The notes under the pieces are model-generated. The model did no database searches, had not been told where the DNA came from, and worked only from the letters and a program-made list of their open reading frames with translations. Both the position numbers and the translations under genes were made by a program. Of a DNA stretch of 64,000 bases, positions 45,610 through 63,108 are shown piece by piece. The stretch spans positions 372,001-436,000 of the forward strand of contig NZ_PRLE01000002.1 of assembly GCF_003287495.1 (NCBI RefSeq). The letters are read 5' to 3'. How positions within the stretch are numbered: the first letter of the stretch is position 1; every line of letters begins with the position of its first letter. The stretch is from Faecalibacterium prausnitzii (GTDB lineage Bacteria; Bacillota; Clostridia; Oscillospirales; Ruminococcaceae).

Positions 45610-45972
45610 TTAAGAGTGCCACGCTTTGCGCAGCTGCTCCAGTGCATGGGTCTCAAGCCTGGAAACGTAACTTCTGCTGATCTGCAGCAGCTGTGCAGTT
45701 TCCAGCTGGGTGAGCGGCGGCTGGCCGGCCATGCCGTAGCGCAGCAAAATCAGCTTCCGCTCCCGGGCAGGCAGCCCCTCAATGAGCTGGCGCAGGCGGG
45801 CAGCTTCTTCCTGACGCTCACAATTTTCTTCCATGCAGAAACTGTCCTGCAAAACGTCGGAAAAGGTGAGGGCGGTGTCCTCTTTTCCGGCTTCCAGCGT
45901 TTCCTGCAAAGAAACCGTCGTTCCGCCCCGCCGCAGCCGCCGGAAATGCATCCGGAGTTCATTCGCTATCCT
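45610..45972 (-). pseudogene. sigK: 3' half of a SigK-like sporulation sigma factor, split by an inserted element
   Basis: The minus strand encodes the C-terminal ~118 residues of a sigma-70-family factor: IANELRMHFRRLRR (end of region 2.4), then region 3, then region 4. Region 4 ends TQLETAQLLQISRSYVSRLETHALEQLRK, with the SRSYVSR pattern typical of SigK rather than SigE (SQSYISR). The reading frame loses homology just upstream of IANE, at the CIENE position where the skin element splits sigK in Bacillus subtilis and Clostridioides difficile. The residues before it come from the recombinase gene read in another frame. The 5' half must lie beyond the other end of the element. Precise excision could restore the gene; otherwise it is dead. 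Confidence 0.85.
45955..45972. other. Left attachment junction of the sigK-inserted element
   Basis: On the minus strand GATAGCGAATGAACTC spans the junction. AATGA serves both as the end of the recombinase gene (its TGA stop at 45959-45961) and as Asn-Glu codons of the sigma factor. The exact crossover bases are not visible without the right end. Confidence 0.65.
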
Positions 45973-47668
45973 CTCCCAACGGATACATAGGTTGCTCAAC
46001 AGGGGGCAAATCCGCTTCTCCATCCTCCGCAAAGAGGTAAACATAGGCGTTTTTGCCGTCCCAGACCACCTTTTTGACGATGGTGCGCAGCAGGCGGCGT
46101 TTTTCCTCCAGCGTGGCAGAATCCACTGCGCTGGCAAACGATTCGATCATTTCCTGATGGAAGGCAAACTCCTGATGCAGCATCCGGCTCTGTTCGGTGA
46201 GGGCTTTCAGCTCGGCAAGGCGCAGCTGCTGTGTCTCGCTCTCCTGATGGAGTGCGTCAATCTGCTCCATGACGTACTTCGCGGACGTGTCGCTGGCGAC
46301 AGACAGGGACTCCACTAGACGCTTGATGCGCTCTTCCGTCTCGGTGTGTTTTTCCCGGAGCAGTGCCAGCTCTGCGTCGTAGCCCTCCTTGCTGCCGCTG
46401 ATGACCCTCTTGGTCTGCGCCAGCAGCCGGGTAAGGGTCTCCTTGTCGGCGGAGAGCTTGCGGATCTCCTCGATGATCTTGGCGTCCAGCGTGTTGCCGT
46501 TGCAGTTTTTCATAGAGCAGACGGTGCCGTGGCTGCGCTCCTTGGTGGAGCACATGTAGGTGTAGATTAGTTCGCCGTCCGCATTCTTGCGGTTAGTCAG
46601 CTTCGGGCGCATATAATCGCCGCATTCGCCGCAGCGCAGAAGCCCGGACAGCAGCGCCACGTTGCTGCGCGGCCTGCGGTAGCTCTTGGATTTGTTAACA
46701 TCCAGCATGGCCTGCACCCGCACCCAATCGCTGCCCGCGATGATGCCGGGGTGCTTGCCCACCGCCACGATCCATTCCTCCATGGGGCGGATCTGGTTCG
46801 CCTTGCCGGGGCGCTGGAGGGTGCGGTTGTATGCCATGACACCGTGCTCGCCGTCGAATTCTGCACGCTCGGCAAACAGGTCAACATTATTTTCTTTCAG
46901 ATACTGATACGCTGTCTCGTCGGCGATCATATAGACCGGGTTCGTGAGAATGCCCCGGATGGCAAAGCGGGTGAACTGCTTGCCGCGCTTCGTGACGCAG
47001 CGGTGCTCCAACAGGTACTGGTCGGTCTTGCTGAGAGAGCCGGTTTCCATGAACACGGAGAAGATCGTCTTGACCAGCTGGATTTCCTCCGGGATGGGTT
47101 TGAGCTTGCAGGCTTTTTTCACCTTGCCGTCCACCGTCACGCTGGACAGGCTTTCTGAGGCATAGCCCGTGGGCGTTGTGCCGCCCAGCCAGCGTCCGGT
47201 CTTGGACAGCTCGTGCATGTTGTCCCGGATGCGCTCGGCGATGGTCTCCCGCTCCAGCTGGGAGAACACGGACGCAATGTACATCATGGCGCGGCCCATG
47301 GGCGAGGATGTGTCGAACTGCTCACGGATGGAGATGAAGTCGATGTGCCGGTCGCCCAAATCCTCGATGAGCTTCGCAAAGTCACCGATGTTGCGGCTGA
47401 TGCGGTCAAGGCGGTAGACCACGATGGCGGCAAATTCAATCTTCTGCGAGTCCTTCATCATTTTCTTGAACTGCGGGCGCTCCAGATTGCCGCCGGAAAA
47501 GCCCTCGTCCTCGTAGACCAGCACGTTTTCCGACGCATCCTCGCCAAAGTGCATGGCGATGTACTGGCGGCACAGCTCGATCTGGTTCTCGATGCTCTCG
47601 CCCTTGCCGGTGAATTTGGACTTGCGGGAGTAGATAACGTATTGCTTCGGCGTATCTTTCGTTTTCAT
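45959..47668 (-). CDS. Large serine recombinase (SpoIVCA-like integrase/excisionase)
   Basis: A 569-residue large serine recombinase. The resolvase domain starts YVIYSRKSKFTGKGESIENQ, with the catalytic Ser in SRKS. It continues with VYRLDRISRN and MGRAMMYIASVFSQLERE (conserved Arg residues). The recombinase domain follows (GRWLGGTTPTGY). A zinc-ribbon has LLRCGECGDY and a second Cys pair after MCSTKE. A coiled-coil lies at about residues 440-500. Such enzymes catalyse site-specific integration and excision, and SpoIVCA, which excises skin from sigK, is one. Here the gene ends inside the sigK junction, with its stop codon overlapping sigK codons. ATG 47668 has a weak ribosome site (GCGAGGTG). 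Confidence 0.95.
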   Translation of the reverse strand: MKTKDTPKQYVIYSRKSKFTGKGESIENQIELCRQYIAMHFGEDASENVLVYEDEGFSGGNLERPQFKKMMKDSQKIEFAAIVVYRLDRISRNIGDFAKLIEDLGDRHIDFISIREQFDTSSPMGRAMMYIASVFSQLERETIAERIRDNMHELSKTGRWLGGTTPTGYASESLSSVTVDGKVKKACKLKPIPEEIQLVKTIFSVFMETGSLSKTDQYLLEHRCVTKRGKQFTRFAIRGILTNPVYMIADETAYQYLKENNVDLFAERAEFDGEHGVMAYNRTLQRPGKANQIRPMEEWIVAVGKHPGIIAGSDWVRVQAMLDVNKSKSYRRPRSNVALLSGLLRCGECGDYMRPKLTNRKNADGELIYTYMCSTKERSHGTVCSMKNCNGNTLDAKIIEEIRKLSADKETLTRLLAQTKRVISGSKEGYDAELALLREKHTETEERIKRLVESLSVASDTSAKYVMEQIDALHQESETQQLRLAELKALTEQSRMLHQEFAFHQEMIESFASAVDSATLEEKRRLLRTIVKKVVWDGKNAYVYLFAEDGEADLPPVEQPMYPLGEDSE

Positions 47669-47711
47669 GGCGGCACCTCGCGTGATGTTGTATCGTTAGG
47701 TTGACAGGTAT

Positions 47712-47739
47712 ATTATATCGGATTGGAATCCATTTGAAA
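47712..47739 (-). promoter_or_regulatory. Possible promoter of the recombinase gene
   Basis: Minus-strand TTTCAA and perfect TATAAT with 16-bp spacing. The -35 is weak. Confidence 0.5.
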
Positions 47740-47844
47740 AGGTACCCAAGGGAAGAATCCGAAAATTTCTGCGGATAGGCAGAGGTTTTCGCGTGCTGAT
47801 TGTGCCAGTTCGGAGGGCATCACTCATGTGCATCGAGAAAATGA

Positions 47845-47873
47845 TTGATGGAATGAGCGATGGGTGCTATACT
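47845..47873 (+). promoter_or_regulatory. Promoter of the Fic gene
   Basis: TTGATG (47845-47850) and TATACT (47868-47873) with 17-bp spacing, 31 bases before the ATG. Confidence 0.7.
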
Positions 47874-47903
47874 ATGGATAACAACCAACACTGCGAGGTG
47901 CGT

Positions 47904-48888
47904 ATGAAAAAGAAACAACCTCCGTTTCAAATCACAAATAAAATCATTGATGATGTTGCAGAAATTTCAGAGCTGACCGGAAGGCTTTCCGCCCACGATC
48001 ATCTTTCAAGCAACCCCAATCTGCGCCGCACCAATCGGATCCGAACCATTCACGGCTCCCTTGCCATCGAGCAAAACACCCTGAGTCTGGAACATGCTTG
48101 CCGTTCTGAACGGCAAGCATGTTCTGGCTCCGCCCAAGGACATTGCCGAGGTCAAAAACGCCTATGAGATTTACGAGCGGCTGGACGAGCTTGACCCCTA
48201 CTCCGTAGACGGCCTGCTGACTGCTCACGGTATCATGACTCGCGGACTTGTGGAGGAATCCGGCATGTTCCGCACAAGGCCCGTTGGTGTCGTAGATCAT
48301 GAGGGACATGTCCTGCATTTCGGCAAGCTGCCCCAGTATGTGTCTGATTTGGTCATGGAGCTGTTGGATTGGGCAAAGCACAGCGACTTGCATATGTTGA
48401 TCCGAAGCTGCATGTTCCATTATGAACTGGAACTGATCCATCCCTTTGCAGACGGCAATGGCCGTGTTGGACGGCTCTGGCACACGTTGCTGCTCTCCAA
48501 ATGGAATCCTGTGTTTGCATGGCTGCCGGTCGAGTCCATCATCCACGACCATCAGCAGGAATACTACGATGCCATCAATGCCAGCAACGATGCAGGCGAG
48601 TCCACCGCGTTCATCGAGTTCATGCTCTCTGCCATCAAAGCATCGCTCATCGACGCCATCCATACGAGTGATACAATGAGCGATGGAAAGATGGACAAGA
48701 AAACTCTGCGCTGGCAGAAGATTGAGCAGTTCTTGCAGACGCATGAGTATATCATGAACGCCGATGTGCGGGAGCTGTGTGGGGTGTCGGCAGCGACGGC
48801 CAATAGAATTTTGGCGGGGTCGGTGAAAGACGGTAAACTGTCAAAACGCCAAGAGGAAAATCATTGGGCTTACAAAATAAATTTGTGA
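47904..48888 (+). pseudogene. Fic-domain AMP-transferase gene with a frameshift
   Basis: Two overlapping reading frames together make a ~327-residue class II Fic protein. The first frame (47904-48092) gives the N-terminus with the inhibitory-helix pattern SLAIEQN (S/T-x-x-x-E). The second (from 48094) gives the Fic core with HPFADGNGRVGR at about residue 180 and a C-terminal winged-helix part (DVRELCGVSAATANRILAG). In relatives LSLEQ is followed directly by xxAVLNGK, so about two bases are missing after GAAC at 48090-48093. The break lies in a perfect 16-bp inverted repeat. Translation from ATG 48094 would give a Fic core without its inhibitory helix, but there is no good ribosome site and the ATG is inside the hairpin. 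Confidence 0.85.
48090..48124. repeat. Perfect 16-bp inverted repeat at the Fic frameshift
   Basis: GAACATGCTTGCCGTT (48090-48105), loop CTG, AACGGCAAGCATGTTC (48109-48124). The arms are exact complements, inside a coding sequence, with no T tract and not in a place for a terminator. Confidence 0.95.
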
Positions 48889-49152
48889 CTTTGCCACTAA
48901 AGTATAAAGATGAGGAAACAACAAAGACACGCATTAGCGTAATTTCAAACGAAAGAAATATTGTGAAAAACCAAGTCAAAGCCACGAATGTCAATGGCGT
49001 TCATACTCAGAAGTGTTCTGCAGAAACGCGCAGACGCACATTTTTGTGCGATCAAGGAGTTTTAGAGGCACTGCCCCTAACAAGAGGAGCCAGATTTTCG
49101 TGAAGGACTCCGTAGCGTAGGCAAAACGGAGTTATTAGCACTGGTAACAGAA
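48889..49152. other. Gene-poor gap after the Fic gene
   Basis: AT-rich stretch with no supported gene. Short reading frames here lack ribosome sites and recognisable content. Confidence 0.5.
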
Positions 49153-49854
49153 TCATTCACCAACATATTTCTTCAAGCGCTTATATAATTGCTGCACAGG
49201 AACAAGTTCTTCTGATGGGCCAATATTGGCTAGTTTATCAAGCACACCACTGTGCTGAAATTTTGTTATCAATGCGAAATATGGACATCTATGAATCTCC
49301 ATCAGCAAGGAAATCAACTCTGCATCTAGATACTTTCCAAACAGACTGATAAGCAACTCAATTTCATCCCGCGCGTCCTCAACGTGCTTATTAACGATCC
49401 AATACGTAGGCACTGAAATCAGTTTTGAGTTAGCGTCGATAAACTTATAACCCAAATCTCCCTTCGGGTCAATTCCATCAAGCAGTTTTTTCAATTCATC
49501 TTCCGAAATTTCATCAAATCCCAATTCTCTCCCTGTTTTCTGCCGATACATTCTTTCGTAGGGGTCACCAATCAATGTCAGGATTTTACTGACGGAAAAT
49601 GATACGGTCGGTTTCACACGTTCATGTTCTCGACACTCAGGTAGATAGATTTGAAAATAACAGAAGATGCAGTTTGCTATGATAGCTAAGCCAAGTGTAT
49701 CGAGCAGGGTAAATAACGCTCCTGCAAAAGGAAACCATTCTGGTAGGTCAGCAGTAAAAACATAAACGAGAGCGATTATTACAGATAGAACCGTCAATAT
49801 GAATAATGCTTTGTATCGACGAATAAATCCCTCTATTATCTTAAAGCGAAGCAT
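49153..49854 (-). CDS. Two-TM membrane protein with helical cytoplasmic domain, unknown
   Basis: A 233-residue protein I do not recognise. Two hydrophobic segments are clear (about 15-33 LFILTVLSVIIALVYVFT and 44-68 AGALFTLLDTLGLAIIANCIFCYF). A soluble, charged, mostly helical part of ~165 residues follows (YERMYRQKTGRELGFDEISEDELKKLLDGID; HVEDARDEIELLISLFGKYLDAELISLLMEIHR). I start it at ATG 49854 because GAGAGGAG lies upstream. It stands alone between the Fic gene and the HipA-like locus. Two-TM proteins with a soluble domain are a common build for membrane effectors in bacterial immunity, but nothing here proves that role. Confidence 0.65.
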   Translation of the reverse strand: MLRFKIIEGFIRRYKALFILTVLSVIIALVYVFTADLPEWFPFAGALFTLLDTLGLAIIANCIFCYFQIYLPECREHERVKPTVSFSVSKILTLIGDPYERMYRQKTGRELGFDEISEDELKKLLDGIDPKGDLGYKFIDANSKLISVPTYWIVNKHVEDARDEIELLISLFGKYLDAELISLLMEIHRCPYFALITKFQHSGVLDKLANIGPSEELVPVQQLYKRLKKYVGE

Positions 49855-50044
49855 TAATATTCTCCTCTCATGGACGCAATCAGTAAAATAGAATATTTTC
49901 CAAAGCGCGATTTGACAAAAGATCAAATCGCGCTATTCCTATGACCCGGATTATAAATCCCAAACGGTGAGAGAAAACGGAAAATATGATGGTGGTTATC
50001 GTATACTGTTTCGTTTAGGGCCATAATGGGGGTATAACTCATAT

Positions 50045-50860
50045 TTACTGCCAATTTCGTTTCAGAACCTCACTTTTCAGATACATCGTACTCTTTTCCG
50101 ATGTTTTGATCGGGTGGAGCTTTCCGCGTTTTGTCAGGTCGATGATATTCTGCCGGGAGCAGCCCAAGATCTCCGCCGCTTCCGCTGCGTTGATGACTCT
50201 GTGTGCAGCATAGTTCCGGAAGTCTTCCATTGTCAGCGGAACACTTTTGCCAATTCGATAGAGCATCGTATCCGAAACGGTCATGTTCACATCCCACGTA
50301 ACGCCGTATCCGCCCGTCTGCATCTGCACATGCTGAAAATAGTCCGGCTTCTTGAGAAGGATCTGAAACGCCTTCGTCTTTTCAAAGTGCTTCTGCAAAT
50401 CGCACTTCTTCACCGCGCCATCCCGGAAAAACACCAGCAGGCAATGATCCTCCAGCGGCAGCACATCTTCAATTCTCTTGGAGAAGCGCTTCGTAATTTC
50501 TTCCGGAAGCTCCTTCTCATCAATGGGAACGAGGTAGTAATCGTCCTGGGCGCATCGCCCCATCGCCAACATCAGAAGCGCATACTCGTCATATTCTTGC
50601 AGATGATTGTCACGCAAAATCTCGCCAATGTTCTGGCGGTCGGTTGGAACGATCCGCTGCTGAACCCAGATTTTGCTCCAATAGGAATTGACTGTGGTTT
50701 CTCCGCGCTTCACAAAGGAGTCCAGCAGCAGCGGTGTCTCCCATGCGGCTGCGTTCTCCGGCAGCTCAATGTAGAACCGCTTTTCCTGCTCGTAGTACAG
50801 GAGGTACGCCAGATCCTTCTGCTCCTGTGCTGATTCATCTCGAATGGCAAAAATCTTCAT
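50045..50860 (-). CDS. HTH protein with DUF2442-like middle, partner of the HipA-like kinase
   Basis: A 271-residue protein. Residues about 132-213 (EDVLPLEDHCLLVFFRDGAVKKCDL ... WDVNMTVSDTMLYRIG) look like a DUF2442 domain. Residues about 223-255 (INAAEAAEILGCSRQNIIDLTKRGKLHPIK) are an excisionase/MerR-type helix-turn-helix. The first 130 residues are unfamiliar. Its start overlaps the end of the kinase gene by 26 bases. By position it is the likely antitoxin and operator-binding repressor, although antitoxins more often come first in such operons. Confidence 0.7.
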   Translation of the reverse strand: MKIFAIRDESAQEQKDLAYLLYYEQEKRFYIELPENAAAWETPLLLDSFVKRGETTVNSYWSKIWVQQRIVPTDRQNIGEILRDNHLQEYDEYALLMLAMGRCAQDDYYLVPIDEKELPEEITKRFSKRIEDVLPLEDHCLLVFFRDGAVKKCDLQKHFEKTKAFQILLKKPDYFQHVQMQTGGYGVTWDVNMTVSDTMLYRIGKSVPLTMEDFRNYAAHRVINAAEAAEILGCSRQNIIDLTKRGKLHPIKTSEKSTMYLKSEVLKRNWQ

Positions 50861-51653
50861 ACGCGCACCACCTTTTCCAAATCATTTCCCATATCTTGTC
50901 CTGAAGCGTCTGCGAGAGCACGCCGTCCAGCCCTTCCATCAGTATCCGCCTGTCGCTATCGTGCAGCGGCGTCAGCTTTGGCATTTTATCCTTCGGAATG
51001 ATACGCAGGTTATCCCATGTGGACTTTGAGCCGATAAAGTTGTTGCAGGGCTTGTCGGCCATCACATCGAACGCAGCCGCCGCAGCATCATCCGGGCAGC
51101 TGCAAAGCAGAGAGAGGCCGTGGTCAAACAGGGGAGCCAGACGAATCGTCTTCTTTCGGCTGTTGCGCAGCACCTCAATATTGGCACCGTGGCGATCCCG
51201 GTTCAGGATCAGATAGTCTACGATCAGCATCTGATAAACATAGTCTTCCCATCCCATACGGATGCAGAAATCCAAAGCGGACTCATCCGGCAACGCTTCC
51301 AACTCTTTGTAGGCATCCAAAGCGGTCTTGGACTCACTCTTTGCCTTGAAATCCTCCGAAGCGCAGAGATAAACTTCGTGGGTTCTGCCATCCACCGAAA
51401 CATCTGCATGGATCAGCTGATAGGACAGATGAGGAATCCCCAACATCGTCAGCAGCCGGTCAACGATCAGCTCGTTCACGCACTCATGCCCGATGACTCC
51501 ACGCGCCTTATCGAAGTTCGAGAGCTTGTAATAGGTCTTCTTTCCGCCGAGTTCGGAGTATGCTTTCAGAAAAGAACCGGCAGTTCCGGAAGAATTGCGA
51601 TAGACTGACCACGACAAATACGTCAGGTCCTGCTTTTCTTTCATCAGCTGCAT
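50835..51653 (-). CDS. HipA-like serine/threonine kinase
   Basis: A 272-residue protein with the kinase core of the HipA_C/CtkA type. The catalytic loop is NRDRHGANIE at 151-160 (Asp153 base, Asn158 metal ligand). The metal-binding FDHG is at 176-179 in LAPLFDHGLSLL. The N-terminal glycine loop is weak (SSGTAGSFLKAY). Length is short compared with ~440 residues of HipA, lacking its N-terminal subdomain, as in CtkA-like kinases. HipA toxins phosphorylate tRNA synthetases and arrest growth; the target here is unknown. It is first in a two-gene operon with a promoter carrying two palindromic operators. Confidence 0.85.
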   Translation of the reverse strand: MQLMKEKQDLTYLSWSVYRNSSGTAGSFLKAYSELGGKKTYYKLSNFDKARGVIGHECVNELIVDRLLTMLGIPHLSYQLIHADVSVDGRTHEVYLCASEDFKAKSESKTALDAYKELEALPDESALDFCIRMGWEDYVYQMLIVDYLILNRDRHGANIEVLRNSRKKTIRLAPLFDHGLSLLCSCPDDAAAAAFDVMADKPCNNFIGSKSTWDNLRIIPKDKMPKLTPLHDSDRRILMEGLDGVLSQTLQDKIWEMIWKRWCAYEDFCHSR

Positions 51654-51673
51654 GTATACCTCACCTCAAGATT

Positions 51674-51702
51674 ATTATATCTTTTCGCTTGTCATACGTC
51701 AA
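51674..51702 (-). promoter_or_regulatory. Promoter of the HipA-like operon
   Basis: Minus-strand TTGACG and perfect TATAAT with 17-bp spacing; operator 1 covers the -35 and adjoining spacer. Confidence 0.85.
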
Positions 51703-51736
51703 GTTTATTTTGGTGTATAACTTGTCGTATGACAAG
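51688..51736. promoter_or_regulatory. Pair of palindromic operators
   Basis: Operator 1 CTTGTCATACGTCAAG (51688-51703) and operator 2 CTTGTCGTATGACAAG (51721-51736) share the half-site CTTGTC/GACAAG. Their centres are 33 bp apart, three helical turns. One overlaps the -35, the other lies upstream. Confidence 0.8.
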
Positions 51737-51758
51737 TTTATCCGATTTTATGCCACAT

Positions 51759-51797
51759 AAAACCGCCGCCCCGATTTGAAGTCAGGGCGGCGGTTTT
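51759..51797 (-). terminator. Terminator of the AAA/DUF4143 gene
   Basis: A perfect 13-bp stem (51759-51771 with 51785-51797), ending in TTTT on the minus strand right after the stop codon. Confidence 0.88.
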
Positions 51798-51798
51798 G

Positions 51799-53583
51799 TC
51801 AAGCAAGGTTTCGCAGATATTCTTCCACATTCTGATACTGAATGCCGTCTATCTCTTGGCTTTCCCCGCGATAGAGGACGAACTTTCCGGTGATCGGGCC
51901 ATAGCGGTGCTCGGTCTGGGCGCATTTTTGCTCGTCGATCAGATGGCGGCACTGCTGTGGGACAGCTTCCTCGCTGTGCTTGATCTCGAAAATCCGGCAG
52001 GAGCCTGCCTCCGGGTCAAATACCACCATGTCAAATTCGCCCACGGGGAATTGCAGGACAAACACCTGCTTCTTGGGGTTTGCCAGCTTGGTTTCCAGCA
52101 GGACGATGTCCTCCAGCATCCGCCCCTTGATCTCGGTCAGGATGCGCTGCTGCACAGCGGTGCGCTCTGTCAGAGACAGCGCGCTGAACGTTTCATCCAG
52201 CAGCAAACTGCGGATCAGCGCATCCGCCTGCGCATAGCGGAGTCCCGGCTGTGCGATCACCGTGCGGCTGGACTTCGTGCTGACATCCGGCAGGTGCAAC
52301 ACGTCGACCTCCCGCGTTAAGTCCAGCAAGTCCAGATACTCCTTGATCTCCGCCGCGTGAACATCGTCCAGTTTTACGGTTTGTTCCGCCTTGTTGCGGA
52401 TCTCCAGCAGCTTCCGCAGACTGTCGGTCACGGCAGCCAAATCCACGCGGTCGAGAATATCTGTAGGATTTGTGCGGTCACGGCGCAGGTTGCTGGCGGA
52501 AATGCCAAGGTCATGGGACTTCCAATCCTGCGCCAGCACCTCCAGCGTGAAGCGGTGGTTGATGTCCTCCACCACCCGGTTGATGGCGCTGGTCAACTCG
52601 CCCTTCTCGTATAAATCCCGCAGATGGCGGAAGTGCCCCTCGTACTGATAGCAGCGCAAGGAGTGCTGGATATTGCGGGCAATGGCGGTGTCCACATATT
52701 CGTCGGTGCTTTCCTTGCTGGCAAACGTGGAGGTCTCGTTGTAGTGAACGCCGCCGAGACTCATGGTGCCGCCGTAGCGGATATACTCGTCGATGCCATG
52801 GATGCCGAGGACAGATTCAAACTCGCGGTAAGGGATGAAGGTGGTATGCAGCAGGATGCAACGGTCATAGAGCTGTTCATCCTCGGTAAAGAGAAAGCCC
52901 AGCGAGTCCGTGCCGGAGAGCACGATCTTCATACCGCAGGCCGCAAACACATCAGAAAACAGCGCCGCGCCCTCGATGAAATCCTCCATCAGCGTCACCT
53001 CGTCGAGGAACACATAGCGAAAGCCCTGCGCTTCCAGCGCCTTGAGGTCACGGTTCACGTCTGCCAGCGTGTCTTTTGCGGTGATCTGAATGAACGCTGC
53101 CTTAGCAAGCTGCGTGTCGCTCATCTCCGCGAAAATCTGGCGGATCATGGTGGTTTTCCCCGTCCGGCGCAGGCCGTAGAGAATGAACACCTTGTCCTGC
53201 GGCTCACCGTATACAATGTCGTGCAGCTGCCGGAAGCACTCGCGCCTGCGATAGTCGCGAACAGATGCCGCAAAGGAACGCAGCGCCTCGCCGGTGCGGA
53301 CATTGGTGGTAAACGCAGAAAGGTTCGCAGGTTTTGCCTTGGGCAGCTGCTTTTTCAGCACCTTCAGCTCCTGCTCCAGCGCCTTCCGCCGCTCGATCTG
53401 GGTGCGGAAATTCTCCAGTTCGTCCGCAGGAATAAACTTCTCCCGCCGCTTTTTGTTCTCCGTCCAACGGTGGTAGAAATAGTCCTTGCCTCTGACGGTT
53501 TTCTTCGTAACAGAGCCAGCGGGCAAAGCAGAAATCTGCTGTTCCAGCTCCGCCGCCCGCGCTTGCATTTCGGATAACTCCAT
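51799..53583 (-). CDS. AAA ATPase with C-terminal DUF4143-like nuclease-fold domain
   Basis: A 594-residue protein. The first ~80 residues (LPAGSVTKKTVRGKDYFYHRW then a coiled coil) match the small DUF6788 type. The P-loop ATPase follows with Walker A GLRRTGKT at 137-144 and Walker B FLDE with Asp194-Glu195. Near the C-terminus FDMVVFDPEAG and IFEIKH give an Asp...Glu-x-Lys pattern of the PD-(D/E)xK fold seen in DUF4143 proteins. These ATPases are widespread in mobile islands and of unknown role. GGAGGT lies before ATG 53583. Its promoter overlaps a long inverted repeat, which suggests tight repression. Confidence 0.85.
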   Translation of the reverse strand: MELSEMQARAAELEQQISALPAGSVTKKTVRGKDYFYHRWTENKKRREKFIPADELENFRTQIERRKALEQELKVLKKQLPKAKPANLSAFTTNVRTGEALRSFAASVRDYRRRECFRQLHDIVYGEPQDKVFILYGLRRTGKTTMIRQIFAEMSDTQLAKAAFIQITAKDTLADVNRDLKALEAQGFRYVFLDEVTLMEDFIEGAALFSDVFAACGMKIVLSGTDSLGFLFTEDEQLYDRCILLHTTFIPYREFESVLGIHGIDEYIRYGGTMSLGGVHYNETSTFASKESTDEYVDTAIARNIQHSLRCYQYEGHFRHLRDLYEKGELTSAINRVVEDINHRFTLEVLAQDWKSHDLGISASNLRRDRTNPTDILDRVDLAAVTDSLRKLLEIRNKAEQTVKLDDVHAAEIKEYLDLLDLTREVDVLHLPDVSTKSSRTVIAQPGLRYAQADALIRSLLLDETFSALSLTERTAVQQRILTEIKGRMLEDIVLLETKLANPKKQVFVLQFPVGEFDMVVFDPEAGSCRIFEIKHSEEAVPQQCRHLIDEQKCAQTEHRYGPITGKFVLYRGESQEIDGIQYQNVEEYLRNLA

Positions 53584-53617
53584 AGCGCACCTCCTGTGAG
53601 ATACTATTCTATGCAGA

Positions 53618-53646
53618 ATTATACCCAACTATACCCTCAAAGTCAA
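53618..53646 (-). promoter_or_regulatory. Promoter of the AAA/DUF4143 gene
   Basis: Minus-strand TTGACT and perfect TATAAT with 17-bp spacing. Confidence 0.85.
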
Positions 53647-53664
53647 TGGTATAGTGGGGTATAA
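53619..53664. promoter_or_regulatory. Long inverted repeat operator over the AAA/DUF4143 promoter
   Basis: TTATACCCAACTATACC (53619-53635) and GGTATAGTGGGGTATAA (53648-53664) are complementary at 16 of 17 positions. They flank the promoter core. Each arm itself holds two GGTATA units about one turn apart. Confidence 0.75.
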
Positions 53665-53682
53665 TTATTTTCTCCGAGCTGC

Positions 53683-53779
53683 TTAGCTACTAATATTCAA
53701 AGCACTTTCCTCAGCGTCTTCCTTGGTATTATACTTTCCCAAGTGAAATACGAATGGTGCCTTTGGCATAACCATCATC
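53683..53779 (-). pseudogene. 3' relic of a cysteine desulfurase gene
   Basis: The minus strand reads DDGYAKGTIRISLGK, then after a one-base shift YNTKEDAEESALNISS and a stop. GTIRISLGxYNT is the C-terminal signature of IscS/NifS/DndA-type cysteine desulfurases. Only about 32 codons remain, so it is dead. Confidence 0.7.
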
Positions 53780-53813
53780 AAGCCTATATCAGTGAAAACG
53801 AACGACAACATGC

Positions 53814-53963
53814 ATGCTCAACCGTGTGCCCCTCAAAGGGAAGAAGGGCAAGCATACCCACGTCTTTATTGACGAGTTCCATGTGGTATTTGTGAATGAG
53901 TTCGCGGCGCAGTTCGTCAACTCTGCACGACGGCAGTTCCGTAAGCGCAGCGCACAACTCTGA
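53814..53963 (+). pseudogene. Relic of a VirB4/TraE-type conjugation ATPase
   Basis: A 49-codon stretch reads MLNRVPLKGKKGKHTHVFID and continues EFHVVFVNEFAAQFVNSARR then QFRKRSAQL and a stop. The HVFIDEFH Walker-B segment and the F-x-NSxxRQFRKR pattern are those of VirB4-like ATPases of integrative conjugative elements. No other part of the gene is present. It marks the former presence of a conjugation module at this site. Confidence 0.7.
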
Positions 53964-54142
53964 CGATAGCTTCCGCGTGAATCAGCACCCAGTTGGCATT
54001 ATGAAATTCTCGGCTACGGTGTGCTGAATCCGTAAGCCGGGTTCAGAGATACGAGTTCGGTCCCCCCTAATTTTTGGTCGCGTTTAAATGTCAACTAAAA
54101 CCGACAACTTCTGAAAAATATCGCGGAAATACCCCGATATCC
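53964..54142. other. Gene-free junction region before the BREX-like operon
   Basis: Nothing I recognise. Composition switches here from GC-rich to AT-rich. Confidence 0.45.
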
Positions 54143-54171
54143 TTGAATTATTCGAGACCTTGTGATAAAAT
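54143..54171 (+). promoter_or_regulatory. Promoter of the Xre/BREX-like operon
   Basis: TTGAAT (54143-54148) and TAAAAT (54166-54171) with 17-bp spacing, 69 bases before the regulator ATG. Confidence 0.7.
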
Positions 54172-54240
54172 ATTCATTGATACCTGTAAAAATGGGTGTA
54201 TTGCGCCCTGATTGGGATAAATGAGAAAGGACGATCGGCT

Positions 54241-54444
54241 ATGCGCGTGAGCTATGACAGACTTTGGAAACTGATGAAGAACAATAAAATGACAAAACGC
54301 GATCTTGCTCAAGCTGCCAGATTCAGTCAATACATGATGGGGCAATTTACCAAAAACGAGTATGTTTCCCTAAAAGAGATTGCGACTCTTTGTGGTATCT
54401 TCCATTGTGATATTGGGGATGTTGTTGAGATAATCGAGGACTAG
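54241..54444 (+). CDS. Small Xre-family regulator
   Basis: A 67-residue helix-turn-helix protein of the short Cro/C1 type (MRVSYDRLWKLMKNNKMTKRDLAQAARFSQ ... FTKNEYVSLKEIATLCGIFHCDIGDVVEI; the piece shown is split for length). The HTH covers about residues 17-50. Such small regulators often sit at the head of restriction and toxin-antitoxin operons. AAAGGA precedes ATG 54241. Only four bases separate it from the next gene, so it is the first gene of the BREX-like transcript and the likely local regulator. Confidence 0.88.
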   Translation: MRVSYDRLWKLMKNNKMTKRDLAQAARFSQYMMGQFTKNEYVSLKEIATLCGIFHCDIGDVVEIIED

Positions 54445-54448
54445 CTGT

Positions 54449-56629
54449 ATGAATAGTCAGCCTAAATGGGATATATACGAATCCGTAGTACTTTTAAACG
54501 GTTACCTCTTAGCTTGTAAAAAGAGTGAACCAAGAGCCTATATTATCAGGCGTGTTTCGGCGGACTTACGAGCCATGGCCATACATCGAGGGCGGAAGAT
54601 TGATGAGATTTTTCGAAATGAAAACGGTATATCTTATCAAATGCAAAGCATGGATTCTGCCTATAAAGGCCGAAAAATTTATGTTCCTGCAACTAAGCTG
54701 TTTCAAGAAACGGTAAGCTTGTATAGAAATCAAAACAGCAGATTTCAGGAATTGCTCAAGGAAGCAAGATATATGATTGAACATGACATTGCACACCCCG
54801 CCCTGAATGATACAGATGTATTTGTCGTAGATTTTAACGACTGCCCGGACATGTCGTTTGCGCGTGTAAACAGTCTCACATATAGAGGGCAGGCAATACT
54901 GATCCGTCCTAAATGGCGTGACCTTTATATAGCGCTTCTGAAAAAACTCTATGCTGATTATTCAAATGAAATTGATAGTGTAGTTGGAAAAGTGTATGGA
55001 AGAGCGTCAGCTCCGTTTGTTGGAAACTGTCATTCTATTTCTTTAATGCGTTCTCCGGGTGAATTCGCTCCTGACAGATATGTAGAACTAAACATATCCG
55101 CAACTACAGTCATTGTAAATATAAAAACTATGCTAGATATCTGCGGTACAAGTTACGAGGATGTCAACATCACTTACACCAAGAGCAATAAGGACCAAAT
55201 GGAAGCACTTTTAAATGTTCAAAATATTCGGACAGTTTTTTCAGCCGAGTTGCTTTCAATTGCGGGGACGATTATTTCTGATATCTTTCCGAATGGCCTT
55301 CGCAAGTCATCGCAAATTGCGAGAAAGAAATTTGCAGCTGCTTATAAAAATACTACAGGCAGAGACTTCCAAGACAATATAGATCTTGATGCACTTGCTC
55401 TTCAGGTTGGATTGGAGTATGAAGACAAGATATATGTTCCTTCTAAGGAAACGAAGGAATTTCTCAAGAAGTTAATCGATAATATTCGGGAACAAGAATA
55501 TCGTTTAGTGTATTACGAAGAACTGTACAACGCTTTTTCAGAACAGCTTTCTGCGGATAAGATTTTCTCGGCAGAGATGTTAAAAACGGTACTTGAGGCT
55601 GTTGCGCCTGAAATGGTTTTCTATAAGGCATATGCGTGCTTTTCAAAGAACGACTCTTTGGTTGATGACATAATACGTGCTTACGGGAATGATATATATA
55701 TCGACTACCAGGAGATAAAAAGTCGCCTGCCGTATGTTGACCTTTATCAGATTCGTTTGACCTGTTCCAGAAGCCCTGAGTTCGTCTCTATGGGCGACGA
55801 AGTATATGCTCTTTCTGGGAAAATATATTTGTCGAAAAACGATGTTGAAGCCGCAAGGAGAAGTATAGAAGAAGATATAACCGAAAATAACTTTTCCAAG
55901 CTTGGAAGCATTGATGTTTATGAAAGTGAATGCATGAATCCCGGCATCAATGCTTCTGCATTGCAGACGCTCCTGTTTGATAGGTATCTATCGGAAGATT
56001 ACGACAGGAAGCGCTCAATCATCACAAGAAAAGGCGCAGAAGTCCGAGTGTACGATGTGATGAAGAAGTTTTGCCTTGAACACGAGCAGATATCCGTTAA
56101 TGAGATAGAAGCATATGAACGGGATATCAGTGGTCGCTTCACATACGGATTAAGCGCCGCTTTTGACGGCATGATCAGAGTTGACAAAGAAACATTTGTG
56201 CATAACGATATGGTGTCTTTTGATGTCGAAGCAATCGACTACGCAATCTCGATGTATGTTCAAAATAGCGTGGTTCCTTTGGCTGACATTAAAAGTTTTA
56301 CTTCCTTTCCCTATGTTGAGGACTTCCCATGGAACTCTTTTCTACTAGACAGTTTTTGCAGTCATTACAGCAAAGAATTTCGTTCAATGGGCGGTCCTGC
56401 AAAGCAGGATATTATCGGCGCAATATACCCGATTCATATGACTTTTGACAACTACACATCTCTTCTGGCAAAAGCCGCCGCAGGTAGCGGATTGGAGCTG
56501 ACGGAGAAAACGATTGGAGACTTCTTTTCTGCCCATAAATACTGGTTGAGAAGGAGTAAGCTCAATGAGGTTTTAGCGACAGCTCAGGAAATGAGACTCA
56601 AGGAGGAACAATCCCTTGTACGAATATAA
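54449..56629 (+). CDS. Unrecognised 726-residue protein at the head of the BREX-like operon
   Basis: I cannot assign this large soluble protein. The first ~110 residues (WDIYESVVLLNGYLLACKKS, then VSADLRAMAIHRGRKIDEIF, FRNENGISYQMQSMDSAYKG) form a compact block that looks like a domain in its own right. The rest is helical and charged, with no P-loop, methylase (NPPY, DPPY) or nuclease motif that I could find, and no membrane segment. The gene starts four bases after the Xre gene. Its end overlaps the start of the BrxP-like gene by 14 bases, so the three are co-expressed. The AT-rich codon use matches the genes downstream. It may be an accessory BREX component, a regulator or a passenger. Confidence 0.6.
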   Translation: MNSQPKWDIYESVVLLNGYLLACKKSEPRAYIIRRVSADLRAMAIHRGRKIDEIFRNENGISYQMQSMDSAYKGRKIYVPATKLFQETVSLYRNQNSRFQELLKEARYMIEHDIAHPALNDTDVFVVDFNDCPDMSFARVNSLTYRGQAILIRPKWRDLYIALLKKLYADYSNEIDSVVGKVYGRASAPFVGNCHSISLMRSPGEFAPDRYVELNISATTVIVNIKTMLDICGTSYEDVNITYTKSNKDQMEALLNVQNIRTVFSAELLSIAGTIISDIFPNGLRKSSQIARKKFAAAYKNTTGRDFQDNIDLDALALQVGLEYEDKIYVPSKETKEFLKKLIDNIREQEYRLVYYEELYNAFSEQLSADKIFSAEMLKTVLEAVAPEMVFYKAYACFSKNDSLVDDIIRAYGNDIYIDYQEIKSRLPYVDLYQIRLTCSRSPEFVSMGDEVYALSGKIYLSKNDVEAARRSIEEDITENNFSKLGSIDVYESECMNPGINASALQTLLFDRYLSEDYDRKRSIITRKGAEVRVYDVMKKFCLEHEQISVNEIEAYERDISGRFTYGLSAAFDGMIRVDKETFVHNDMVSFDVEAIDYAISMYVQNSVVPLADIKSFTSFPYVEDFPWNSFLLDSFCSHYSKEFRSMGGPAKQDIIGAIYPIHMTFDNYTSLLAKAAAGSGLELTEKTIGDFFSAHKYWLRRSKLNEVLATAQEMRLKEEQSLVRI

Positions 56630-58895
56630 ATACGATGCCGAAACTGGCGGCATAATACTTACAGATACTACTTCACTTGTATCAAAAGAGCCGAGACCAG
56701 TCTATGCTCAGGAGCTTGATTATCTGGGCGTTGATGATTATCTGATATACGAGAAGCAGCAGGATGTCCCTTATATGTGGGCTGAGGCCGCGCGGTATAT
56801 CTACAAGGGAGAAGTCATTTTCAATACAAAGGGCGGCTCGCTTTACGAAAAGCCTACGCTGGAATTCGCAATGAAAGAAGAAAACGGTGAGAAGGTTCGT
56901 GTAATTCCAAACGGTACAGTTCTTGAGAAAATCGACATCTCCGCTATGGTAGAAGCGAACAGAGACTCGCTTGCAATTATAGAACAGATAACAGTCAAAA
57001 AAATCTATGATGTGTATAAGCGTCGGCAGAAATCACTTGATTGTTTCCATGTTGCCTTTTCCGGCGGCAAAGACAGCATAGTACTTCTTGAGCTTGTGAA
57101 AAAAGCATTGCCGAGAAGCAGCTATATGGTTGTATTCGGTGATACAAAGATGGAATTTCCGGATACATATGAACTGGTTGATATTGTCGAGAAGCAATGC
57201 AAAGAGGAGGGTATAAACTTCTACCGTGCGGCATCGCATTTCGAACCGGAAGAAAGTTGGCGTCTGTTCGGACCTCCCTCCAGGGTTCTTCGCTGGTGCT
57301 GTACTGTTCACAAGGCCGCACCTCAGACGCTGAAAATCCGTGAGGTTTTGGGAAAGAACGACTATGTGGGAATGGACTTTGTCGGAGTAAGAGCGCATGA
57401 AAGTGCCACTCGTGCCACTTATGACGAGGAAAATTTCGGGAAGAAGCAAAAAGGACAGTATTCCCATAACCCGATATTGGAATGGACATCTGCGGAAATT
57501 TGGCTGTACATCTTTTCGCATAACCTTCCGATTAATAACACCTACAAAAAAGGAAACTCCAGAGCAGGCTGCCTGTTTTGCCCGATGGGTGGCGGTAAAT
57601 CAGATAGCTTTAGATATCTTTGCTATAAGAATGAAATAGATAAATATACTGATATTATTAGAGATACCATTGCTGATAAAAATATAAACACATATATAAC
57701 AAATGGAGGCTGGATCGAACGTAAAAACGGAAGAGATATTATTGGCAATGAAACGAAGTACACTGAAGAGATAATTGGAGACAATCTTGTTATCACAATT
57801 AAGAATCCATCAACTGATTGGCATGAATGGATAAAGACGCTTGGCGAAGTTAGCTTTGAATATGATGTCGAGCAGATAAGTAACGGATTTAGAATTACCG
57901 TCCCAAAGCAATACGATAAAAGTAGCGAATGCAAGCTCTTCAAACAGGTGTTTCACAAAGCAGCATACTGTGTAAAGTGTGGGGTTTGCGAAGCAAATTG
58001 TAGAAACGGGTGTATTTCCTTTAAAGATGGATTGGTGATTACCAATTGCTTGCACTGTAAGCAATGTCATAATATAGATGATGGCTGTTTAGCTTATCAC
58101 TCTATGCAGTTACCAAAAAACGGAGGGAGAGTAATGAAGAGTATAAACACGTTTGCAGACCATGCCCCCAAAATTGAGTGGATCCAAAATTTCTTTGAAA
58201 AAGGAAATGAGTTTTTTACAGATAATACACTTGGTCCTATGCAAATTAGCATGTTTAAACGGTTTTTATCAGATGCAAAACTGGCTGAGAAAAACAAAAC
58301 AACCCAGTTTTACGATGTTGTAACGCGATTAGGGTGGGAGTCGGAGGAAGCGTGGGGATTGATACTTGTCCAACTGGCTTATCAAAATCCGCAAATAAAG
58401 TGGTATATTGATAATATGCCGATTAACGAGACATTTCCGCGTCAGTACCTTGAGGATAAACTTGTTGAAGCTGAAATCAGTCCGAAGGATGCAAAATCTA
58501 TTCTCAAGGCATTTAAGAGACTGACTGAAATTCCATTAGGATATGTCATCAACTTTGGAATAACGGAGAATTCTGGGCGTCAAATATCCTCTTTGCGACG
58601 CTGCAAGAGCACCTTATCGAGTAAGCTCGTTCTTCTCTATGCTCTGTATAGATATGCTGAGGCTTGCGAGGGATACTATCAGTTTAACCTGAGCACGCTG
58701 ATGGATGTAGCCATAGATTCCGTCGGTATCAGCCCGGTTAAGATATTCGGCTTTGAGCGAGATGAGCTGGAAGCAATGCTCAGAGGCCTTTCCGCAAAAT
58801 ACAATGACTTCATTGATGCAGACTTTACACACGATTTGGAGAAGATAGCACTGAGAGACTATCACACATCCGCAGATGTGCTCGATCTGTTTTAA
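56616..58895 (+). CDS. brxP: BrxP-like PAPS-reductase-family protein with ferredoxin-type cluster and DUF4007
   Basis: A 759-residue protein. A ~140-residue N-terminal part comes first, then a PP-loop PAPS-reductase domain with SGGKDS at 149-154 and later GCLFCPMGGGKSDS. A cysteine-rich region follows (YCVKCGVCEANC from Cys452, then CLHCKQC) like two 4Fe-4S ferredoxin motifs. The C-terminal ~220 residues fit DUF4007. The set matches BrxP of BREX type 4 and resembles DndC of phosphorothioation systems. PP-loop enzymes of this kind activate substrates with ATP; the role in BREX-4 is not settled. Start: TTG 56616, 9 bases after AGGAGG. The only alternative is a later in-frame codon without a ribosome site. 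Confidence 0.8.
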   Translation: MYEYKYDAETGGIILTDTTSLVSKEPRPVYAQELDYLGVDDYLIYEKQQDVPYMWAEAARYIYKGEVIFNTKGGSLYEKPTLEFAMKEENGEKVRVIPNGTVLEKIDISAMVEANRDSLAIIEQITVKKIYDVYKRRQKSLDCFHVAFSGGKDSIVLLELVKKALPRSSYMVVFGDTKMEFPDTYELVDIVEKQCKEEGINFYRAASHFEPEESWRLFGPPSRVLRWCCTVHKAAPQTLKIREVLGKNDYVGMDFVGVRAHESATRATYDEENFGKKQKGQYSHNPILEWTSAEIWLYIFSHNLPINNTYKKGNSRAGCLFCPMGGGKSDSFRYLCYKNEIDKYTDIIRDTIADKNINTYITNGGWIERKNGRDIIGNETKYTEEIIGDNLVITIKNPSTDWHEWIKTLGEVSFEYDVEQISNGFRITVPKQYDKSSECKLFKQVFHKAAYCVKCGVCEANCRNGCISFKDGLVITNCLHCKQCHNIDDGCLAYHSMQLPKNGGRVMKSINTFADHAPKIEWIQNFFEKGNEFFTDNTLGPMQISMFKRFLSDAKLAEKNKTTQFYDVVTRLGWESEEAWGLILVQLAYQNPQIKWYIDNMPINETFPRQYLEDKLVEAEISPKDAKSILKAFKRLTEIPLGYVINFGITENSGRQISSLRRCKSTLSSKLVLLYALYRYAEACEGYYQFNLSTLMDVAIDSVGISPVKIFGFERDELEAMLRGLSAKYNDFIDADFTHDLEKIALRDYHTSADVLDLF

Positions 58896-58908
58896 GAGGT
58901 GAAGGAGA

Positions 58909-61900
58909 ATGAAATATAGCGAATATTTTGAAATAGACAAAAACTACTATCCGGAAATTAACCCGGACTCCGTGAAAAATCCGGGCAATGAGTGGCAATA
59001 TACCTATCCTCATGAAACCTTTGTCGAGCTGCTTTCTTCTGTCGAGCTTATGCTCAGCAGGGAAAACACTGAGCTCAGAAAAGGTATTTGGATTGAGGGC
59101 TCATACGGCACCGGTAAGTCCAGAGTTGTGTGGGCACTGAAGAATTTATTGGAATGCTCCGAAAAGGAGTTTCGTGACTACTTTGAAAAAAATCACGATG
59201 AATTCAAAAAAGCCCCGGACTTAGAGGACAAACTTTTCGCACAAAGGTCGGGGAAAATTGTCACTGTGTTCCGCTACAACAGCGGTGAAATTACCACAAT
59301 TAAGAAGTTTATCACTGCCGTATTTGACAGCGTTTCCGATGCGCTTGATAAGGCAGGCATTGCATATAACGGCAACAAGACACTGCGTGGTAAAGTTGTC
59401 CAGTGGCTTTCAGATGATGCTAACAAAGCATATTTCAACGCTATTATTTCGATGCCGCAGTATCGCTCTCTGGGCAGCTTAAGCGGCAAAAACGCTGATG
59501 ACATTATAGCACAGTTAAACAATCCTTCTGCCAGTTCGGATGCGCTCCTCACTGATATTCTGCGTATAGGTGAAGAGAAAGGTATTAAACCGTTCAATAT
59601 TGAAATGCGGGATTTGAAGGACTGGCTCACAGACATTATTGAGAGCAACCAGTTAAAAGCAATCGTTTTTCTGTGGGACGAGTTTTCTTCCTTTTTCAAG
59701 AATAACCCGACTGCTTTGGATGTATTCCAGTCTTTAGCAGAGCTTGCAAACGACAAGCCATTTTATATGGTTATTGTAACGCATATGGCGGGCTCTTTCT
59801 TCTCGGATTCGGACAAGAGGACAAAAGATGCTTTCAACATTGTCTATGACCGTTTTGTACATAAAACAATTGAAATGCCTGATAACATTGCGTTCAGGCT
59901 TATTAAACACGCAATGAAAATAAAAGATGTCGCAAAAGATGAATACGAAGATTTCGCCGACGAGCTAACAAGCTACATGCCTTTCTCCAGAAAGGCGGTA
60001 TGCGAAGCTGTAAAGGTAGACGACGATGTGATGAAGGGCATCTTCCCCATTCATCCCATGGCCGCTCTTTTGCTGAAGCATTTTGCAAAGAACTTTGCTT
60101 CTAACCAGAGAAGCATGTTTAACTTTATTAAGAATAGCCAGTCTAATGATTTGCACGCATTTCAGTGGTTCATTGAGAACCATTCGCCTGAGGATAACGA
60201 AATTCTTACAATTGATTACCTTTGGGATTTCTTCTACGAAAAAGGCGGAGATGAAAACTCCGATACGCAGGGCAAGAGCAACCTAGATATTGCTATTGCA
60301 ACAATCCTTGATACATACCCCAGCAACGCCGCCAAGCTGAACCGTGAAGAACAGCGTGTTCTTAAAACTGTCCTTATGATGCAGGCAATCAGCAAAAAGA
60401 TGAATAACGGCGTGGAACTGTTGCGTCCGACAGTGCAGAACCTTGGACTTGCTTTTGAAGGCGACGATTCCATGGAGAACAACCGTGCTATCAATATTGC
60501 GAGAAATCAGCTCGTTCAGAAGAAAATTCTTTATATCGACACTAATGGCTCTGTTGAAGAATTTGCCGCTTCTGCCATTGCCGGAGATCAGGTGCAGATT
60601 GATGCAATTAAGGATCGTTTGCGTAAAGAAACCAAAACTGCAAAGCTCATCGATGACGGCGATTTGATGTCAGCGTTTACCTTTAATTCCGCTTTGCGTG
60701 CAAGATACAATTTCCAATATGCAACGGTAGATAATTTCAAAGTTACAGTCAACAGGATAAATAATATGCCGAAATCCTACAAGTTCAATGCGGTAATTTG
60801 CATCGCCAGAACCGAGGAAGAGCAAACAACCCTTCGTCTAAAGATAGCCGAAGCGGTACGGGATTCTGCTTATGCGGATATCATTTTCATTGATGCCACA
60901 TCCAATATTATGGGTGCAGATCGTTTTGAACAGTGGATTAGTGTTGCCGCTCAAACGGAGTACTGGAGGCCGAAAGACCCCCGTCTTGCCGACAATAAAC
61001 AAACAGATGTTAAACGTACTCTTGCAGACTGGAAGAATGATATTACGGGAGGAAAATTCACAGTTTACTTTGGGACTGACTTTAAAGAAAATGCTTCCAG
61101 TATGACTCTTCTCAAAGAAAAACTTGCAGCAGTCGTACTAAAAGTTTACCCTCTATCTTTTGACAATTGCAATGTTTCTGATCAGTTCTTTACAGATGCA
61201 AAGTATGCTGATGCTGCCAAAAAAGGCATTGCTATGGCAAAGACCGTCGACTTCACAAGACCCGGCATTTTCCAAGAGAAGTATGTAAAGGCTATGCTCG
61301 GAGATGCGCTTGGATTGAGCATTTTGAGGAAGTCAAGCCGCATCTGAGCATTTCCAAGCTCAAACTGAAGGTAAAAACCCTTATAGATGGAGTTTTTGAG
61401 AAGGATGTTCGTATTGCTATCAGTGACATCTTTGATTATTTGATGAAGGAAGGCTTTATGCCTTGCTCAATGTATGCATACCTTGCGGGGTTCCTTCTGA
61501 GTGATTATTCCGATGAGCCCTACAGATATGGTGTCGGTTCTGCGGGTGATGACGGTGGCAAAATGACTGCCGGAGAACTCGGGAATGACATCGGAGAGTA
61601 TGTTAAGAATAAGGTTTCTCCGATTAAAAACTACAAAGAGAAGTATATTGAAATAATGACGCCCGACCAGAAGGCCTTTGTTGATTTTGCAGCCAAGGCG
61701 TTCGGCATTGCGGAAAATCTTTCCGTAGAACAGGCCGCGTCAAAAGTCAGAATCAAGCTGAGAGATATCGGCTATCCCATCTGGTGCTTCAAGGCTATTG
61801 ACACAAACAGCTTGGAAGAATTTATTGACAAACTTGCGGAAATATCGAATTCGCAAAACGGCGGGAATGTCCCTACTCTTGCCGGTCAAATGGGTAAAAT

Positions 61901-63107: not shown

Positions 63108-63108
63108 T

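Follow-up and report, generated by a model that had tools for sequence, protein, structure and literature searches.

Background

In Clostridioides difficile, the sigma factor gene sigK is split by the skin element, in which the gene of a large serine recombinase (LSR) lies immediately 5' of the 3' half of sigK and the attachment (att) half-sites are inverted repeats; excision requires this LSR (CD1231) together with a directionality factor, CD1234 (PMC5025042). The same gene is interrupted in Bacillus subtilis by a 48-kb prophage-like skin element (recombinase gene spoIVCA) with a core of only five bases (PMC13141910), and the phages phiS63 of Clostridium perfringens and MMB025 of Alicyclobacillus are further mobile DNA that integrates into sigK (PMC13141910). 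The gin element of Bacillus cereus ATCC10987, 28.6 kb long and without phage genes, interrupts the sporulation gene gerE (PMC5595907). Here, we analyzed a comparable element of 27,151 bp that splits sigK in a genome of Faecalibacterium prausnitzii (G000, assembly GCF_003287495.1; 2.68 Mb in 19 contigs), starting from a stretch of 64,000 nucleotides (the window, G000:C12:372001-436000) in which the 3' half of the gene and the adjoining LSR gene are located.

The locus shares with the C. difficile skin the split sigK, the position of the LSR gene and the inverted-repeat half-sites, but differs from it in its cargo, which consists of type 4 bacteriophage exclusion (BREX), MobC and RepA_N genes, and in a pro-sequence-like extension of SigK, recognized by eye, which the C. 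difficile protein does not have. The candidate directionality factor is likewise of another kind, i.e., a helix-turn-helix (HTH) gene just inside the 5' junction instead of a 72-aa protein with its own promoter. In contrast to the B. subtilis skin and to phiS63 and MMB025, which are infectious phages, neither phage structural nor virion genes were found among the proteins scanned here, and while the gin element also interrupts a sporulation gene without phage genes, it has three recombinases and targets gerE instead of sigK. A literature search, for which subscription journals were mostly outside reach, found among the papers listed no report tying Faecalibacterium to a split sigK, and the 15 of 3,726 papers listed on sigK and gut families were unrelated. 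The kind of element is known; its host, its cargo, its horizontal spread and the genus-wide coupling between LSR and sigK state were not found among the papers listed.

The split sigK gene

The original prediction, made from the window, had placed a SigK-like C-terminal half at the position where skin elements split the gene, with a serine recombinase gene beginning there and the 5' half outside the window, and all three points held. The open reading frame (ORF) at 45610-46137 (-) contains the C-terminal half of SigK, the SigK portion opening at an AATG core that is overlapped by the stop codon of the LSR gene (Table 1). Beyond the 64 kb, a Sigma70_r2 search (12 places listed in G000) located the 5' half at C12:445097-445288, on the same strand and on the same contig of 499,564 bp, in the stretch that follows the window (C12:436000-450000, hereafter L010). 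The corresponding ORF of 138 aa (L010:9026-9442, equal to G000:C12:445025-445441, -) starts MIFPLLQFFASKFLLLALHLEAGSFPRPL, is SigK-like up to CIEN and then continues into element DNA. The 5' half terminates ...CIENAIL and the 3' half begins ...RIANELRMHFRR; joining them in silico from core to core at the shared AATG restores the sigK frame (...RCIENELRMHFRR..., 226 codons, no internal stops), and the same joining gave an uninterrupted sigK in the genomes G003, G013 and G016. The best NCBIfam model for the joined protein was SigK (NF004471, 6.6e-66, 221.9 bits, below its cut-off of 252 bits). The G+C content of the element is 46.4% vs. 58.6% in the left flank.

An intact sigK elsewhere in G000 would have spoken for a different origin of the fragment. 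The SigK-profile search gave 12 matches in this genome, and among the matches listed were both halves and no intact second sigK; the best full-length match was rejected as such a copy, being sigE beside sigG. We are almost certain that the LSR element lying within sigK is able, in principle, to restore the gene.

A CATACAGT box begins 28 nt ahead of the start codon of the 5' half in G000. Across 32 upstream sequences, which are related and in part share a genome, a CATANANT box occurred 27-57 nt before sigK in 28 (chance in shuffled sequences 2.1% each) and CATA alone in all 32 (chance 29.5%), and in G005 boxes lay 58 and 78 nt ahead of residue 7. This box can be set beside the CATATTAT box that a C. 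difficile sigK promoter carries (PMC3789822). By eye, the hydrophobic N-terminal extension of SigK looks like a pro-sequence.

Element ends, recombinase and candidate directionality factors

The sequence typical of the genus is AATGCTATCCTCTCCCC... at the N-half junction and ...GGGGAGAGGATAGCAAATG at the C-half junction. These terminal repeats are inverted copies of one another and agree in 16-19 of 24 positions in the five elements having both ends, all with a common core. In G000, the sequence inside the 3' junction (GGGAGAGGATAGC) is an imperfect inverted match of the opposite end (16/24 positions), and the junctions of G000 and G009 depart more from the genus pattern. The base following AA in G013 is T at the N-side junction and C at the C-side junction, a difference that locates the exchange at AA. 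The element of G003 has its arms swapped, with the LSR at the N-half, and is thus in the opposite orientation. A palindromic core as the cause of both orientations was rejected, as the core dinucleotide appears to be AA, and the inversion must have another cause. Three assemblies from other genomes (L072, L108, L115) end exactly at the recombination core, a break to be expected if the sequenced culture or sample contained the excised form alongside the integrated one.

By sequence, the best match of the LSR among solved structures was the TP901-1 integrase, and the 401-bp region before its gene contained two sigma-70-like sites compared to 0.7 expected in shuffles. Two candidate directionality factors were recognized, by position or domain alone: the 183-aa HTH protein and the protein encoded at 50045-50860 (Table 1). 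A homologue of the former lies directly after the N-half, in the direction of sigK, in 9 of the 13 genomes having an N-half, and at the C-half in G003. After excision, the order on the circle would be LSR-attP-HTH.

State of sigK across the genus

In 31 Faecalibacterium genomes, the LSR was scored as present at E ≤ 1e-60 with an open frame, and the state of sigK was taken from the SigK-profile matches listed, to which all the following counts refer. Full-length SigK was found in 20 genomes (cut by contig ends in G010 and G025), an N-half in 13, a C-half in 7 and at least one half in 15. Both halves without a full copy were present in G000, G003, G013, G016 and G030, and these were exactly the five genomes with an LSR; the remaining ones comprised the 20 with full-length sigK and six with neither LSR nor full copy. 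Fisher's test of LSR against full copy gave p = 0.0027 for all 31 genomes and 0.0021 for the 22 that are ≥ 90% complete, not corrected for kinship. A full copy together with one half, and no LSR, occurred in G002, G009, G014, G015, G017 and G028, and N-terminal remnants of the LSR were located just upstream of the full sigK in G002, G027 and G028, G027 coming in addition to the 15 genomes with a half.

The N-half was 94-100% identical to the N-part of the full gene in the five genomes having both. Repair of every such genome by copying of the N-half was rejected as a general rule, since several genomes have a rearranged flanking block; in G013, G014, G028 and G030 the upstream block sits inside the interval, which means that these loci were rearranged. 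The G015 region (G015:C1:1085465-1112470) is rearranged as well and has a sigK C-half with an element arm 26 kb upstream of the full sigK, this C-half being 87.6% identical to the full sigK of G015 and 91.5% to the C-half of G003.

A comparison with genomes lacking the element had been proposed for finding the empty site, and it succeeded on one side: the nearest empty site, in G012, is an intact sigK behind the same flank, its 3,619 bp upstream being 94.8% identical to the sequence before the 5' half of G000, but the downstream flanks differ. The median dN/dS of sigK (nonsynonymous to synonymous substitutions, Nei-Gojobori) was 0.168 in the 201 usable of 231 pairs, with medians of 0.121-0.197 for the five split genes and 0.177 for pairs of full genes; the full genes of G010, G021 and G025 (contig edge or incomplete start) were excluded. 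These ratios show purifying selection on sigK at some time and are not proof of present use.

Spread of the element family among gut Clostridia

The scan of the genome_contigs collection returned 415 relatives of the LSR, and the following locus counts cover the best 80. A sigK half adjoins the LSR in 74 of them: the C-half follows directly in 71 (69 by tblastn, with matches starting at query residue 95-110, mostly 107-108, and two, L094 and L116, by eye), and a convergent N-half adjoins it in three (L066, L088, L106). Among the other loci, three are the contigs ending at the core, L089 is truncated, L098 has no recognizable sigK, and in L043 the LSR lies between a tRNA gene, identified by eye, and another gene of Hominifimenecus (Lachnospiraceae). 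The G000 LSR is 94-97% identical to six sigK-adjoining LSRs (Oscillibacter, Anaeromassilibacillus, Pseudoflavonifractor and others), but the SigK C-halves next to these are only 38-42% identical to that of G000, which implies that the element moves between genera. At the DNA level, the identity of this LSR gene with those of the six and of L043 is 86-93%. Over 2,211 pairs from 67 loci, LSR identity reached at least 85% in 98 pairs, and in 65 of these the SigK C-halves were ≤ 70% identical. The element inserts at the conserved CIEN|E codons of sigK, is passed horizontally between gut Clostridia and brings cargo, and sigK has been hit repeatedly by this horizontally moving family.

The LSR search gave a single match (38%) among phage records, eight plasmid records, all below 60%, and 41 relatives in viral_contigs, of which one matched partially at 98% and three others exceeded 50%. 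In the plasmid collection, three C. difficile records of ~ 24 kb each (NZ_CP149669.1, NZ_CP149734.1, NZ_CP149756.1) carry a related LSR (39%) and are possibly excised circles of an integrated element instead of plasmids. L043 (142-5536) is a mini-element of ~ 5.4 kb with the same LSR, ATPase and HTH ends, which sits off-target and shares only the AATG core. In Lacrimispora and Clostridium sp. (L107, L109, L118), sigK elements of ~ 2.6-4.2 kb were seen with a cytochrome-b5-like ORF before the LSR and, in L109 and L118, an alpha-galactosidase-like ORF right behind the N-half, these ORFs being named by eye. Sporomusa ovata (L093:12726-12956) has a second SigK-C-like stretch ~ 5 kb past the one adjoining the LSR.

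Sporulation genes and host phenotype

Faecalibacterium is usually described as non-spore-forming, and the host had been presumed a non-sporulator; the presumption has to be amended, as sporulation genes are present. In G000, Spo0A was found by search, with a SpoIVB-like ORF upstream of spo0A named by eye, and spoIIGA-sigE-sigG were named by eye and gene order. SpoIVA was found by search in G000 and, as the sole other genus member sampled, in G020. SpoIIID was present in 29 of the 31 genomes (28 above the cut-off), SpoVAC/SpoVAEB in 28 and the GerA family, which may include SpoVAF-like proteins, in all 31. Judged by its genes, G000 is not a clean non-sporulator. In the genus as a whole, genes for small acid-soluble spore proteins (SASP) went undetected while SpoVA, GerA-type and SpoIIID genes were retained. 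That true spores form is in our view possible but doubtful.

A review lists F. prausnitzii in passing among spore-formers (PMC8953710), and a survey of gut Firmicutes ties spo0A to predicted spore-formers, its main text mentioning Faecalibacterium solely in a reference (PMC8340488). The 16S rRNA target of a Faecalibacterium fluorescence in situ hybridization (FISH) probe (PMC6546321) was present in 9 of the 31 genus genomes, with 5-6 copies in each of the eight single-contig genomes. Among 148 family genomes a single one had it, a control weakened by the many drafts that may lack 16S; it was not found in G000, a draft that may also lack it. We take the genus to be, almost certainly, Faecalibacterium.

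Proposed mechanism and alternative explanations

With both halves, matching cores and end repeats, the frame restored in silico, the LSR domains, the horizontal spread and the genus pattern, the locus is likely a skin-type mobile element intervening in sigK, with an architecture like that of C. difficile and developmental excision that restores the gene; its developmental role is our inference. It is more likely than not that excision takes place in some cells of the genus. A sigma-E-type promoter would drive the 5' half of sigK and read into the HTH gene inside the junction; the HTH protein, or the excisionase-like protein at 50045-50860, would direct the LSR, itself under a vegetative promoter, to attL x attR recombination; the element would exit as a circle, leaving sigK whole in a terminal mother-cell-like cell, and the germ line would retain the element. 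With excision only in a terminal cell, the element would occupy a gene needed only by a cell about to die, and as the host appears still to need SigK, it would depend on excision. The original prediction had offered a parasite's safe harbour and a developmental switch as alternatives; both are supported and they are mutually compatible. Tentatively, and with less confidence than in excision itself, we suggest that Faecalibacterium runs a SigK-dependent terminal differentiation (cryptic or SASP-less sporulation) and carries a defence-bearing element with its directionality factor behind the sigK promoter, so that mother-cell transcription triggers removal, and that lineages losing the LSR survive only by regaining a whole sigK.

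If sigK is usable only after excision, it would be a built-in DNA recorder of entry into the late mother-cell programme, and the joined-sigK junction a simple DNA test for a spore programme in these bacteria. The transmission of this oxygen-sensitive commensal between hosts is an open question. The element family can also carry phage defence in a place where the germ line keeps it and the dying cell discards it.

Several observations weigh against this proposal, and some of them would be expected if the locus were a relic, i.e., the sigK of an ancestral spore-former, split in a lineage that has since ceased to sporulate, with halves that are undecayed and never rejoined, which we consider rather unlikely. 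The search for alpha/beta-type SASP genes, which was positive in 41 of 61 family genomes, detected them in 0/31 genus genomes, so that the genus may not form ordinary spores; in G030 the LSR frame is open and yet the joined sigK stops after codon 208; G020 (99% complete) gave no sigK, LSR or SpoIIID match, and G026 no match to a sigK half, a full copy or the LSR. Four drafts (83-93% complete), all without LSR and full copy, have an unpartnered half: in G005, G007 and G022 it is the N-half, which an element-like end follows, and in G011 the C-half, located at a contig end. The customary view of the genus as non-spore-forming also fits a relic. Against it stand the recent acquisition of the G000 element, whose LSR is nearly identical in other genera and whose content is unlike that of the other genus intervals, the purifying selection on sigK, the near-universal SpoIIID, SpoVA and GerA-type genes, and the full-length sigK kept, apart from the four drafts, by genomes with element traces and no LSR. 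A decayed relic, also raised by the original prediction, is less apt for G000, but fits the remnants in G002, G009, G014, G015, G017, G027 and G028 and the stop in the G030 sigK. Further points against our proposal concern the trigger and the site: G009, G016 and G028 gave no HTH homologue at E ≤ 1e-15, the inverted element of G003 does not have its HTH gene behind the sigK promoter, a directionality role is unproven for either candidate, no excised form was seen, the predicted attP pattern having no match in viral_contigs, and the empty site could be compared on one side only, as the flank downstream in G000 matches neither G012 nor the other references used. In addition, a genome group including Faecalibacterium was reported in 2021 to keep the spoIIIA operon without SpoIID and SpoIIB, many phenotypes being unknown (PMC7924749).

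The element could also be a pure parasite that exploits sigK merely as a conserved landing site, itself dispensable, and is not excised developmentally. Its clear mobility, conserved target and defence cargo agree with this, as does the off-target insertion beside a tRNA gene in Hominifimenecus, but a dispensable site should tolerate the loss of the LSR without another sigK, and the seven genomes with remnants listed above all have a full copy; although the incomplete one-half drafts G005, G007, G011 and G022, without a full copy, are exceptions to this argument, we regard such a parasite as improbable. A repurposed SigK programme that is switched by excision and serves, e.g., to remodel the envelope or to enter dormancy without true spores, would account for the retention of sporulation regulators, SpoIVA, SpoVA and GerA-type genes with SASP undetected; it has no direct evidence in its favour, the GerA-type and SpoVA genes suggest spores over another structure, and we hold it to be unlikely, if less so than the relic. 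That an assembly artefact or contamination fused two sigK fragments is hardly credible: the genome is a draft of 19 contigs, but both halves lie on one of them, the split position recurs in the single-contig genomes G003 and G030, the LSR adjoins a sigK half in nearly all of the 80 loci, and the upstream flank matches G012.

Gene content of the element

Table 1. Features of the sigK locus and its intervening element; plain positions are those of the window, L010 positions those of the stretch beyond it
Feature	Position	Strand	Remarks
sigK 3' half (C-terminal SigK)	45610..45963	-	starts at the recombination core AATG, 45960-45963
LSR, 569 aa	45959..47668	-	Resolvase, Recombinase and zinc ribbon domains
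Recombination core AATG, 3' (C-half) junction	45960..45963	-	flanked inside the element by GGGAGAGGATAGC
Element, part in window	45960..64000	.	remainder L010:1-9115
Predicted sigma-70-like promoter upstream of LSR	47712..47740	-	TTTTCA-17-TATAAT, 10/12
Fic-family gene	47793..48888	+	two overlapping ORFs in different frames (47793-48167, 48094-48888); only the second scanned
ORF without assigned function	49153..49926	-	
DUF2442 protein with C-terminal HTH_17 domain	50045..50860	-	HTH_17 matches excisionase families; second candidate directionality factor
HipA_C-like ORF	50835..51653	-	weak match, under Pfam cut-off
AAA_14 ATPase	51799..53628	-	
ORF ahead of BREX genes	54449..56629	+	no match in PADLOC, NCBIfam, PHROGs
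brxP (BREX type 4)	56616..58895	+	PAPS-reductase-like
brxC	58909..63107	+	two ORFs in different frames (58909-61347; 61440-63107)
pglZ (BREX-4)	63109..64000, on to L010:1272	+	open for 720 aa
brxL	L010:1285-2742	+	
NifS/DndA-like cysteine desulfurase	L010:2905-4083	+	
WYL-domain protein	L010:4094-5071	+	
MobC/NikA	L010:6788-7117	+	
RepA_N	L010:7318-7641	+	
HTH protein, 183 aa	L010:8526-9077	-	just inside 5' junction, sigK direction
sigK 5' half	G000:C12:445111-445441 = L010:9112-9442	-	outside window; matching core L010:9112-9115

Very probably, the element is mobile and is no prophage. Pfam and/or PHROGs searches with 12 of its proteins found neither phage structural nor lysis genes; for seven proteins of the BREX region the scan was confined to PADLOC and NCBIfam, and small ORFs were outside all scans. 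Where a PHROGs match had a named function, this was that of a regulator, an excisionase or a replication-type protein. The matches to MobC/NikA and RepA_N suggest an integrative mobilizable ancestry. Ten other proteins of the element gave no match to a phage structural family, and one of them (50045-50860) matched excisionase families. All four genes of what we take to be the type 4 BREX set (brxP, brxC, pglZ, brxL) were recognized, PglZ being named BREX-4 by NCBIfam; brxC spans two reading frames, which makes BREX activity uncertain. The frame change, at 61280-61470 of the window, may be a sequencing error, decay or a real frameshift. An apparent break in pglZ was rejected as an artefact of the window end.

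The DNA of the AAA_14 ATPase is 81-92% identical in L043, L045, L046, L048, L052 and L089. Within the genus, the intervals of G002, G003, G013, G014, G028 and G030 share 11-22 kb with one another and at most 1.1 kb with G000, which shares 1.7 kb with the interval of G015 and 1.0 kb with that of G016. The G030 interval includes, e.g., a ResIII/PLD helicase, a Fic protein and an adenine deaminase.

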